Source of the DNA: a bacterium
Lineage (GTDB): Bacteria; SM23-31; JAUVVT01
Assembly (NCBI GenBank): GCA_030616165.1
Contig: JAUWXV010000063.1
Location: forward strand, 1-15,642
Reading direction: 5' to 3'
DNA: 15,642 bases
The notes under the pieces are model-generated. The model made no database searches. It was not told the DNA's origin and worked only from the letters and a program-made list of their open reading frames with translations. The translations under genes were made by a program, and so were the position numbers. Position 1 is the first letter of the stretch, and every line of letters starts with the position of its first letter. Positions 3,214 to 9,438 of the stretch are shown here, piece by piece.

Positions 3214-3933
3214 ATTAATCCTTTACTTCAAAATATTTTAATATTTCAGAAACTTAATAATTATAAAGAAGATGATATTTTTCAGGTATTACAGGGTGAA
3301 TCCAATCAGACAATAGCAATAATTTTAGTTCGACTTAATGCCTTAAAAGCAAAAAATGTTCTTAGAAATTTCTCACCTGACCAGCAAAAAGATATAGCAT
3401 ACCGAATGGCTACCGGAAGCAGTATTCATGGTGATGTTCTAAATCAAGTTGCAAAAGGGATTCAAGAAAAACTCAGGGCTTTTGATTCTCATCGAGGGTC
3501 AGAGGTGGGAGGTTCCGAAAAAGTGGCTAAAATACTTAATCTTCTACAATCAAAAACAGGTAGGAATATACTTTCAGAACTCGAAAAAAGGGATATAAAT
3601 CTGGCATCCAGAATAAGAGACAAGATGTTCACATTTGCAGATATACATAATATTGAAGACAGTTCACTAAGAAGAGCCCTTACAAAAATCCCCAATGATT
3701 TACTTGCGCTTGCCCTTAAAGATGAATCATATGAAATGAAACAAAAATTCTTTACCAACATTTCTGATAATAGAAAAAAAATATTACTTTCTGAACTGAG
3801 AACCCTTGGTCCCCAAAGGCGTTCAGATATACAAGCCGCCAAAAATAAAATAATTACAATCTTAAAAAATTTGCAGGAAAAAGGAGAACTGTTCTTCAAG
3901 GGCAAAGATAAAGGAGATGAATGGATTTATTAA
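3214..3933 (+). CDS. FliG-like protein lacking the N-terminal domain; probable ATT start
   Basis: The frame is open from 3178 to the stop at 3931-3933 and encodes FliG middle and C-terminal domains. In flagellated bacteria FliG is the rotor protein contacting FliF, FliM and the stator. Counting from 3214 (239 residues): FliG_M at about 19-85 contains QGESNQTIAIIL, where the usual EHPQ motif reads ESNQ. FliG_C follows from GGSEKVAKILNLL (about 99), with MFTF at 138-141, ALALKD (165-170) and LGPQRRSDIQ (198-207). The FliF-binding FliG_N domain, about 100 residues, is absent, and the DNA before 3178 looks non-coding. No ATG, GTG or TTG occurs in frame before ATG 3406, which would cut FliG_M in half. 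However AAGGAG (3201-3206) lies 7 bases before ATT 3214, so ATT initiation is the best start. It stands alone, with no other flagellar gene nearby. It could be a divergent paralogue or a degenerating copy. Confidence 0.75.
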   Translation: MNPLLQNILIFQKLNNYKEDDIFQVLQGESNQTIAIILVRLNALKAKNVLRNFSPDQQKDIAYRMATGSSIHGDVLNQVAKGIQEKLRAFDSHRGSEVGGSEKVAKILNLLQSKTGRNILSELEKRDINLASRIRDKMFTFADIHNIEDSSLRRALTKIPNDLLALALKDESYEMKQKFFTNISDNRKKILLSELRTLGPQRRSDIQAAKNKIITILKNLQEKGELFFKGKDKGDEWIY

Positions 3934-3968
3934 TAATTGATTATGCTCAAAAATAGGACTACTTTTTT

Positions 3969-5381
3969 CTAAATTCTATGTAATTTCAAAAGGTTTGTTG
4001 TCCCCTTTTCATATATTGGCGCACCGAGAATTATTACTATTGCATCCCCCCTTTTAACAAATCTTTCTTTTAAAAGGAGTTTATCAACCTTTTCAATCAA
4101 ATCATCAGTATTTTCGATGAGTGGCATAATTTTCGGGCTAATACCCCAGTAAAGAGACATTTTTCTTTTAATCTTTTCATAAGGAGTGAATGCAATAATT
4201 GGGATATATGGCTTCGATTTTGAAATCAAAAGTGCGGTAAAACCAGATTGAGTAAAAGTTACAATAGCTTTTGCACGGATAGCTTCGGCTGAGTATGCGG
4301 CAGCATCGGTTATTGTATCCGAAAATGACAAAACTTTTTCGGGACATACTTTTCTTTTCACGATTTGCATCGAGAATTCCTTTTCAGTAGTTTCAATTAT
4401 CCTTGACATAACCTTTACAGATTCCACAGGATATTTTCCCGAAGCAGTCTCTTCAGAAAGCATTACTGCATCTGTTCCGTCCAGAATAGCATTTGCCACA
4501 TCCGATGCCTCTGCTCTTGTTGGGCGTGGATGTTCGGTCATAGATTCAAGCATCTGAGTAGCAGTAATTACGGGCATCATACACTCATTAGCCCTTTCGA
4601 TTATTTTTTTTTGTATAATCGGGACTTTCTCGAGTTCCATTTCAACACCCAAATCCCCTCTTGCTATCATAACACCATCAGAAACATCAAGAATCTCCTC
4701 AAGATTTTCAACTGATTCCGGTTTTTCAAGTTTTGCAATAACGGGTGTATCCTTTTTAAACTTTGAAATAGTTTTTTTAATTTTTTTAACATCTTCTACT
4801 TTTCTAACAAAGGAAAGAGCAATATATTCTAAATCGTTTTCGAGGCAGAATTTCAGGTCTTCAACATCCTTCTTAGTCAATGATGATACACTCAAATCAA
4901 CACCGGGTAAATTAATTCCTTTATGCTCTTTTAAAAGTCCGCCATCGATTACTTTGCATAAAACATTGTTACCTCTAATATTCTTAACCTTCAGTTGAAT
5001 CATCCCATCATCTAATAGAATCGAGTCCCCTATTTTTAAATCTTTCGTAATATTTTTGTAATTAGTTGAGATAATATTTTCGGTTCCAAGGATATTTTTT
5101 GTAGTCAAAGTGATTTCTGAATTTTCTTTTAAAAGACATTCTTTATTTTTTAGCAAACCAGTTCTGATTTTGGGTCCCTGCAAATCACCAAGTATCGCCA
5201 CAGTTTTTCCCGTTCTTTTTGAGGCTTTTCTTACATTGTTTATTATTTTTAGATGACTATTATGAGAACCATGAGAAAAATTCAAACGGGCAACATCCAT
5301 TCCTGAAGATATCATCTCTTTAAGAACCTCCACAGATTCTGATGAAGGACCTATTGTGCATACTATCTTGGTTCTTTTCAT
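3969..5381 (-). CDS. pyk: Pyruvate kinase
   Basis: This enzyme transfers phosphate from phosphoenolpyruvate to ADP at the end of glycolysis. From the chosen ATG at 5381 it has 470 residues, a typical length, and begins MKRTKIVCTIGPSS like most family members. Substrate and potassium-site residues Arg32, Asn34 and Ser36 are in ARLNFSHG. DLQGPKIRTG (66-75) is conserved. The catalytic Lys217 and metal ligand Glu219 are in AKLEKPE, and metal ligand Asp243 is in MIARGDLGVE. TATQMLESM (273-281) and HPRPTRAEASDVANA (284-298) are intact. The B domain spans about 70-168 and the allosteric C domain about 350-470. GGGAG at 5390-5394 is 8 bases from ATG 5381; an adjacent ATG at 5384 is equally possible, whereas the upstream TTG at 5396 overlaps this site and is unlikely. 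It converges on the FliG-like gene. Confidence 0.97.
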   Translation of the reverse strand: MKRTKIVCTIGPSSESVEVLKEMISSGMDVARLNFSHGSHNSHLKIINNVRKASKRTGKTVAILGDLQGPKIRTGLLKNKECLLKENSEITLTTKNILGTENIISTNYKNITKDLKIGDSILLDDGMIQLKVKNIRGNNVLCKVIDGGLLKEHKGINLPGVDLSVSSLTKKDVEDLKFCLENDLEYIALSFVRKVEDVKKIKKTISKFKKDTPVIAKLEKPESVENLEEILDVSDGVMIARGDLGVEMELEKVPIIQKKIIERANECMMPVITATQMLESMTEHPRPTRAEASDVANAILDGTDAVMLSEETASGKYPVESVKVMSRIIETTEKEFSMQIVKRKVCPEKVLSFSDTITDAAAYSAEAIRAKAIVTFTQSGFTALLISKSKPYIPIIAFTPYEKIKRKMSLYWGISPKIMPLIENTDDLIEKVDKLLLKERFVKRGDAIVIILGAPIYEKGTTNLLKLHRI

Positions 5382-8045: not shown

Positions 8046-8093
8046 ATCTAATCTGAATTATTCATAAATTGTAATTATCATCTGTCGGCAATA

Positions 8094-8126
8094 AGCTATT
8101 TGCTTTTAGCTATTAGCTTTTAGCTT
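8094..8126. repeat. 14-bp tandem repeat, about 2.4 copies
   Basis: AGCTATTTGCTTTT (8094-8107) is followed by AGCTATTAGCTTTT (8108-8121) and the partial unit AGCTT. The array overlaps the left inverted repeat. On the minus strand it supplies the final Lys-Ala-Asn-Ser codons and the stop of the read-through four-helix-bundle frame. Confidence 0.85.
8100..8125 (+). repeat. Left 26-bp terminal inverted repeat
   Basis: These 26 bases match the reverse complement of 8504-8529 at 24 positions. The first 18 bases, TTGCTTTTAGCTATTAGC, are identical; the two mismatches follow, then TTAGCT matches again. Confidence 0.95.
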
Positions 8127-8465
8127 GATAATTAATTTGTTAAGCATTCGTTTAATGTATAATAGCTAACCGATAATTTCATCATAAGTTTTTGAGTTTA
8201 TATACTTTAAATCGTAAACGAGTATCATTTGATATTCTAATTCGTTTGCAGAACTAAAAGCGATTTGCAAGAATCTAGCAAAATCAGGGTCACTATTTCT
8301 TCCACATCCTTCAGCAATATTTGAAGGAATAGATGAACAAGTGCGTCTAATTTGACTTGTTAAACCAAATAGTTCCGCGTTGGGGAATTGTTTGGATATT
8401 TTATAGATTTTGAGAGTCAATTCATGGCTTTTCTTCCAAACTTTTAAGTTTTTGAAATCTTGCAG
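8106..8465 (-). pseudogene. Four-helix-bundle (23S rRNA IVS / S23-type) protein with in-frame TAG and no ATG
   Basis: The reading frame from CTG 8465 begins LQDFKNLKVWKKSHELTLKI, the usual start of this family, and continues with the core signature FGLTSQIRRTCSSIPSNIAEG, followed by a GRNSDPDFARFL segment. A TAG at 8166-8168 ends it after 99 residues. Reading past it gives 19 further residues ending IKRMLNKLIIKLKANS and a TAA at 8106-8108, for 119 codons in total, which is the normal family length. No in-frame ATG exists: ATG 8472 is in another frame, and a stop precedes the CTG by one codon. GGAGG (8474-8478) is 8 bases before CTG, so CTG initiation is possible; a TTG at 8420 would remove helix 1. 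Either the gene is decaying, or it uses CTG and yields a shortened protein, or sequencing errors are present. The family's biochemical function is not established. Confidence 0.75.
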
Positions 8466-8473
8466 AGTTCATC

Positions 8474-8478
8474 CCTCC
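8474..8478 (-). promoter_or_regulatory. Strong Shine-Dalgarno site pointing to a CTG start
   Basis: GGAGG on the minus strand is 8 bases before CTG (8463-8465) but almost abuts the out-of-frame ATG (8470-8472). Its spacing supports CTG as the start of the four-helix-bundle gene if the sequence is correct. Confidence 0.5.
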
Positions 8479-8503
8479 AAATATTGAGTTTCATTTTTTT
8501 GAT

Positions 8504-8529
8504 AGCTAACGGCTAATAGCTAAAAGCAA
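8504..8529 (-). repeat. Right 26-bp terminal inverted repeat
   Basis: Inverted copy of 8100-8125 with two mismatches. It lies about 38 bases upstream of the proposed CTG start, so the two copies enclose the whole gene and its ribosome binding site. Confidence 0.95.
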
Positions 8530-8559
8530 TTATACTAAGTTTTTCATAAATTATTCAGA

Positions 8560-9438
8560 CTAATTTAGTTGACCGGCAAGAACTACAGTCTCCTTCTTTG
8601 AAACTGTAATCCCTCTCTCAGATTGAAGCGCTTCAAGATATATTATATAAATCCCTATTGGTAAAATTCTCCCATCATTATTCTTTCCGTCCCAAATTAC
8701 CGAGCGGGTACTTCCAGTGGGCTCGTTATTTAGAAGCCTTTTTACCAGCCTCCCGGAAACATCATATATTTCAATCTTAACATTCCCTTTATTAAATGGG
8801 AGAGAATAAGTGATAGTAACATAATCGTCAATACCATCATTATCCGGCGAGAAAGGATTAGGTGCTACATTTATTGAAACTCTTGATGGTGTAATCACTG
8901 AATAAATTGAATTTTCTTTACCAGGCGTTCCACCGTTTGTTTCAACACAGGAATCCCAATTTTCTTTATCATTAGTATTTTTATAAGGATTTATTCTCTC
9001 AATGGAAACACCCCTATCCCCTCCCCACTTGCTTTTATAACTCAAACTATCGATAACGATACCTTCATCATTTCGAAGGATTACATCATCTTCATCATTA
9101 TTGAACCGCGGAAATCCTTTAGACATAATAATGACTTTAATGTTGCCATCGAAATCAAAAATTAATCCTGAATTTCTTCTTATTACAATATAATCGTCAG
9201 AGAAAACCAGATAAGAATCATCTATTATAATACTTCCTTCTGGTTTATTTCTATCTCCAATCATCCATCCTTTTATTTCAACAGTTTCTTTTCCTGCATT
9301 AAAAATTTCAACCCACTCCGTCTCACCTGTTATAGGACTATACATTACTTCGTTGATAACTATATTCTGGGCATTAATCGTATAATATAAAATTATATAT
9401 AATAAAAAATTTAAAAGAACTGATTTAATGATTTTCAT
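8560..9438 (-). CDS. Secreted lamin-tail domain protein with FlgD-Ig-like C-terminal domain
   Basis: This 292-residue protein starts with a signal peptide (about 1-23, cleavage near INA/Q). Residues 25-165 form a lamin-tail domain (LTD): it opens with IVINEVMYSP, continues with EWVEIFNAGKETVEIKGWMI (41-60) and ends with NGGTPGKENS (168-177), typical of bacterial LTD proteins. Residues 188-275 resemble the FlgD-Ig-like/CHU_C-type end: VAPNPFSPDNDGIDDYVTI, then VKIEIYDVSGRLVKRL, DGKNNDGRILPIGIYIIYLE. Such C-termini are common in secreted proteins of FCB-group bacteria and can act in sorting or attachment; whether this one does is unknown. It lies 25 bases after the bactofilin-like gene and is probably co-transcribed. 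There is no SD site before the ATG. No catalytic domain is seen, so a structural or adhesive role at the surface is likely. Confidence 0.88.
   Translation of the reverse strand: MKIIKSVLLNFLLYIILYYTINAQNIVINEVMYSPITGETEWVEIFNAGKETVEIKGWMIGDRNKPEGSIIIDDSYLVFSDDYIVIRRNSGLIFDFDGNIKVIIMSKGFPRFNNDEDDVILRNDEGIVIDSLSYKSKWGGDRGVSIERINPYKNTNDKENWDSCVETNGGTPGKENSIYSVITPSRVSINVAPNPFSPDNDGIDDYVTITYSLPFNKGNVKIEIYDVSGRLVKRLLNNEPTGSTRSVIWDGKNNDGRILPIGIYIIYLEALQSERGITVSKKETVVLAGQLN

Follow-up and report, generated by a model that had tools for sequence, protein, structure and literature searches.

The window analysed here, the whole 15,642-nucleotide stretch of DNA, contains a 508-bp insertion (8052-8559) between the convergent lptG and lamin-tail genes. 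Its ends are 17-bp terminal inverted repeats (TIRs): the left one, TCTGAATTATTCATAAA (8052-8068, plus strand), matches the TIR consensus TCTGAATWATTYATRAA exactly and pairs with the right one (8543-8559), which reads TCTGAATAATTTATGAA on the minus strand. Outside both TIRs lies the same 4-mer, CTAA, as a target-site duplication (8048-8051 and 8560-8563), whose right-hand copy includes the stop codon of the lamin-tail gene.

Nested within the TIRs, two inverted arrays enclose a minus-strand gene. They share an exact 18-bp core (8100-8117 on the plus strand and 8512-8529 on the minus strand; 0.03 matches per window expected from shuffling) and extend to arms of 29 nt each (8097-8125, plus strand, and 8504-8532, minus strand), of which 26 positions are paired (90% complementary). 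The arm pair scores 20 on a +1/-2 scale, on which no control window out of 371 attained 16. Both arms consist of tandem heptads of the form TTAGCTN, the left array (downstream of the gene in its own sense, the right one being upstream) reading TTTGCTT, TTAGCTA, TTAGCTT, TTAGCTT. The exact cores, the arms and the profile match of the gene (below) show that the repeats, the gene and their nesting in the original prediction are real. Its "26-bp inverted repeats" are indeed inverted, but they are 29-nt tandem heptads and not simple 26-mers. Moreover, the limits it gave to the unit (8100-8529) were too narrow, since the element with its duplications spans 8048-8563; the repeats taken for its ends are internal heptad arrays, and the duplication fits the outer 17-bp TIR. 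In the predicted RNA fold of the unit (z -6.0), TIRs and arrays are paired, and an Rfam scan of the window gave no match.

In a profile search, the enclosed gene (8166-8465, minus strand) matched PF05635 (23S_rRNA_IVP; E 2.3e-32) and TIGR02436 (E 2.4e-35), in line with the predicted four-helix-bundle gene of the type found in 23S rRNA intervening sequences (IVS), hereafter S23. The ORF as listed begins at an internal TTG; the frame is open upstream to a CTG (8463-8465), before which a Shine-Dalgarno-like GGAGGG (8473-8478, minus strand) was read directly, and a related copy on contig C227 has the same CTG start preceded by GGAGGGG. The frame closes at a TAG (8166-8168), and the profile match passes through it to 8136, so that the C-terminal codons lie past the stop (8136-8165, minus strand). 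Because two sister copies (C297 and C249) read AAA at the site of this premature TAG, the S23 copy of the window is probably damaged and decaying. Structures of S23 homologues are 2GSC (Xcc0516) and 2RLD, and the solved homologue is a pentamer. To our knowledge, S23 is not a known nuclease, and PADLOC models gave no match to three S23 proteins at E 0.01. Avd of DGR systems is a homologous four-helix bundle (PMC10053308); the Avd profile NF033474 matched the S23 gene at E 3e-4, with 21.1 bits against a cut-off of 80 bits, and no reverse transcriptase was recognised beside the window's S23 when its neighbours were read without a profile search.

Dispersed copies and the empty junction

Searching the same genome at the DNA level recovered related pieces at five other sites, three of them internally deleted (C1, C227 and C261) and two truncated (C249 and C297). 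The copy at C1 is 169 bp long, is flanked by an ATAA duplication and has its S23 gene deleted. The repeat, too, recurs in the genome, as the original prediction had proposed to check: TTAGCTN in three tandem units gave 32 matches (1 for the reversed control), and the TIR consensus gave 150 matches with at most two mismatches (40 for the reversed control). Twelve TIR pairs in the sampled loci have a repeated 3-4 bp flank, mostly a 4-mer NTAN; two are S23-unit copies (the window with CTAA and C1 with ATAA) and ten are others. The other TIR pairs of the family have no S23 match, and the outer 17-bp TIR is common to a larger gene-less MITE family.

Gene-less elements of the same TIR family, 158-273 bp long and with repeated flanks, were also noted in G000 on contigs C56, C92, C125, C141, C144, C166, C221, C224 and C327 (loci L103, L108, L111-L113, L115, L117, L118 and L096); several of them hold a GTCATCCTGAAC...TTCAGGATC palindrome. 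In G059, three near-identical copies show no clear target duplication.

The window element resembles a MITE in being short, with 17-bp TIRs, the 4-bp CTAA duplication, several dispersed copies, some internally deleted, and no transposase; it differs by its S23 gene and heptad arrays. An autonomous element with the outer TIR was not found, and the transposase search (PF01609 only) gave one fragment. With a completeness of 90% and 343 contigs, the assembly may lack a multi-copy IS.

Empty sites at the lptG/lamin-tail junction, which the original prediction had suggested looking for, exist in the class; with the repeat also recurring in the genome, neither of the conditions that the prediction named as refuting it held. 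In one relative of the same class (L238, G004), lptG and the homologous convergent gene are separated by 2 nt with no element, and the gap in the window is also 2 nt once the element and one CTAA are removed. In another relative (L237, G002), the same two genes lie 95 nt apart and S23 is absent. Since these relatives are distant (37-41% LptG identity), the two loci represent an unoccupied junction within the class and not evidence of a recent insertion. Thus the related copies elsewhere in the genome, the CTAA and ATAA duplications and the empty junction in a same-class relative uphold the claim of a mobile unit. Our main reading, to which we assign a probability of about 0.7, is that 8048-8563 belongs to a small family of dispersed elements and is decaying: it is an IVS-type unit inside a MITE, inserted at the 2-nt lptG/lamin-tail junction. 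The MITE layer of this reading rests on the TIRs, the duplication, the copies and the empty junction; the transposase that moved it would have acted on the TIR in trans.

Inverted heptads around S23 genes

Inverted repeats composed of 7-nt units, with a sequence specific to each locus, were present at 11 of the first 29 S23 loci in other genomes (L034-L062). For the larger set, alignment A1 was too diverse for scanning and the narrower alignment A2 was used on genome contigs; the 78 S23 loci come from the best 80 of 587 loci, which are skewed to one part of the family, and inverted repeats were scored within 200-nt flanks at a threshold of 14. At this threshold, an inverted repeat was present at 52 of these 78 loci from the best 80 of 587, compared with 1 of 371 control windows, and mismatched upstream and downstream arm pairs reached it in 6 of 771 cases. 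The remaining 26 of the 78 had no inverted repeat of at least 14 within 200 nt. A period-7 self-match of at least 12 occurred in 61 of 156 S23 flanks versus 10 of 742 control flanks; period 7 ranked first, and nothing was seen at periods 3-6 and 10-12. The inward-reading strand of the arms is G-rich at 48 of the 52 loci. Inverted repeats of at least 14 also accompany 20 of 30 S23 loci on viral contigs, some of which may be host DNA.

This association bears on the possibility that a MITE picked up S23 by chance, with heptads that came from the MITE or from simple-repeat drift and are unrelated to S23. The gene-less TIR pairs described above and the heptad arrays found away from S23 would fit such a capture, but it is strongly disfavoured by the inverted heptads flanking S23 genes in unrelated phyla and on viral contigs.

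Within one genome, S23 loci mostly differ in their heptad while the arms of each unit match. A genome-wide heptad "dialect" was rejected: it fits some genomes and fails in others, in which the heptad changes from one S23 locus to the next. Two S23 loci in the same-class genome G005 have no TTAGCT arrays. Other arrangements were seen in passing. The inverted repeats flanking S23 at L148, L154 and L141 have a period of 8 or 9, not 7; in Vreelandella sedimenti (L181, about 3345-4000), an (ACAACTC)n array of about 650 bp lies downstream of an S23 gene; and G013 has 19 short matches resembling S23, many of them paired on opposite strands at close spacing (e.g., C7:104028-104554, C2:122174-122711 and C3:436717-437275), which looks like a different S23 arrangement.

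Heptad arrays also occur without S23, and heptad counts differ between genomes. Three tandem TTAGCTN units matched 15 times in G001 and 106 times in G005 and were absent from most other genomes. ACTCGG heptads abound in Geobacter AOG1, Pseudoxanthomonas and a Clostridia MAG, and 18 of 23 genomes have none. In the Clostridia MAG (G067, L226-L233), many ACTCGGG arrays are paired in inverted orientation at a spacing of about 120 bp; their G-rich strand points outward, the reverse of that in S23 units, and several other heptads are present. At three further loci (L018 1601-2102, L020 1647-2514 and L016 1544-2099), S23-less heptad arrays adjoin repeated GGGCGAA...TTCGCCCCTAC palindromes.

REP/REPIN-RAYT systems combine solo inverted hairpins with a coding long form, and heptad units may be analogous to them, except that the gene recognised in the unit is S23, as opposed to the Y1 transposase of RAYT systems. 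A REPIN-like hairpin family could thus be spread by an unrelated transposase, with S23 as the hitch-hiking cargo of its long form. Geobacter AOG1 has solo inverted heptad pairs of about 65-110 bp, arrays are dispersed in several genomes and the inward arms are G-rich, all of which favour this scenario. We nevertheless consider it somewhat unlikely, because S23 is found repeatedly between the arms across phyla and because a single genome can hold units with different heptads, in contrast to the REPs that a single RAYT recognises.

Ralph and McClelland (1993) are said to have described a 23S rRNA intervening sequence with S23p. The Coxiella burnetii IVS has an S23p ORF preceded by tandem GACAGAT heptamers, a 28-bp terminal stem and RNase III cleavage (PMC4990558). 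Like the window unit, it carries an S23 ORF and heptamers inside pairing ends, and its 428 nt compare with 436 nt between the outer array edges in the window; the window unit differs in lying between protein genes, not in an rRNA gene, and within an element that has TIRs and a target duplication. The shared protein family, the pairing ends and the Coxiella-like heptamers bear out the prediction that the unit is related to the rRNA IVS and exists outside rRNA. An actual 23S rRNA IVS that escaped into intergenic DNA would account for the protein family, the heptamers and the terminal stem; it is very unlikely, given that none of the motif-scanned loci resembled 23S rDNA and that operon units (below) are widespread. 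A search of the window's own assembly for LSU rRNA detected none. Because the operon units are widespread, the rRNA IVS may be a special case of them.

The separate pieces have already been published. In Xanthomonas and Nostoc, G-rich heptad arrays (186 in X. campestris, where 70 convergent inverted pairs were counted) have been described (PMC4692102) that are likewise degenerate, mostly intergenic and often in convergent inverted pairs, but they were described without a link to S23 genes: the text mentions neither S23 nor Xcc0516, the S23 protein that X. campestris encodes. Likewise, our search of the full-text literature, which covered few subscription journals, found no paper joining S23 genes to inverted heptads, and the link is apparently new. 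The undescribed system suspected in the window is more aptly framed as a rule that applies to S23 genes across many phyla. Taken together, our data suggest that S23 genes bracketed by inverted heptads represent a widespread type of selfish element that has apparently gone unrecognised.

Operon units and probable gene loss

S23 units are frequently located between genes that share an operon, pathway or complex. Their neighbours include purC and purF, sdhA and sdhB, 3-hydroxyacyl-CoA dehydrogenase and thiolase, two methylmalonyl-CoA mutase subunits, a GMP synthase and a carbamoyl-phosphate synthase large chain; at the last two, the opposite neighbours are, by our own reading of the sequence and not by profile, probably guaB and carA. 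S23 is co-oriented with its upstream neighbour in 71 of 76 cases, with its downstream neighbour in 68 of 75 and with both in 64 of 73, compared with 189 of 244 (77%) for other genes of the same loci (p = 0.067). Sense orientation within operons was therefore rejected as evidence, the local baseline for both neighbours being already 77%. Selection for pairing of the arms in sense RNA gained no support either: G-U mismatches did not exceed A-C mismatches (25 vs 41 at 52 loci; 94 vs 113 in 82 units, p = 0.21).

The purC-purF site of Chryseobacterium occurs in several states. At 71 sampled loci (one genome is counted twice), 25 have a 447-462-nt unit with S23, and 46 have a gene-less spacer of 84-141 nt. 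Several of these spacers consist of inverted heptad hairpins with a different sequence, and three (L322, L327 and L331) are gene-less remnants that retain the 3' arm of the unit. Seventeen of the 25 S23 ORFs have at least 112 aa and eight are shorter. On a weakly supported tree of 780-bp flanks, in which 41 of 67 nodes exceed 0.8, S23 presence changes at least 17 times over the 71 loci, compared with a mean of 20.8 and a minimum of 15 after shuffling; with that many changes, the state of the site is very labile. AGAAGTT arrays are more numerous in the S23-bearing species (Mann-Whitney p = 0.0025, with species not independent of one another).

These results speak to another alternative, in which the hairpins are useful to the host in mRNA processing or stability within operons and S23 is a domesticated regulator binding them. 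The placement between genes of one pathway or complex would suit this role, as would the many species with a hairpin of differing sequence at the same purC-purF spot. We regard it as unlikely, considering the eight short ORFs, the repeated gain or loss of S23, the lack of sequence conservation and the lack of a G-U excess in the arms.

Returning to our main reading, the S23 gene would be promoterless and expressed by read-through from the upstream gene in its own sense, here the lamin-tail gene, much as an rRNA IVS uses rRNA transcription; because co-orientation is not significantly above the local baseline, this read-through can only be inferred. The inverted arrays would fold into a long hairpin with the S23 gene in its loop. 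S23, as a relative of Avd and in view of its association with heptads, may bind this hairpin and help to spread or maintain the unit, and loss of the gene would leave solo hairpins, a step supported by the Chryseobacterium remnants. We tentatively propose, at somewhat less than even chances, that units of S23 and inverted heptads form one class of selfish element between host operon genes, with the rRNA IVS as a special case, in which the hairpin is recognised by S23 and spreads with its help, the arms co-evolve as heptads turn over, and gene loss leaves intergenic hairpins.

What the rRNA IVS protein does has been a standing question since the 1990s, and intergenic heptad repeats have been without explanation. 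The association of S23 with heptads joins both questions and makes each testable. That the arms match within a unit while other loci of the same genome differ in heptad is a separate puzzle. The heptad hairpins of a genome can now be read as possible relics of S23 units.
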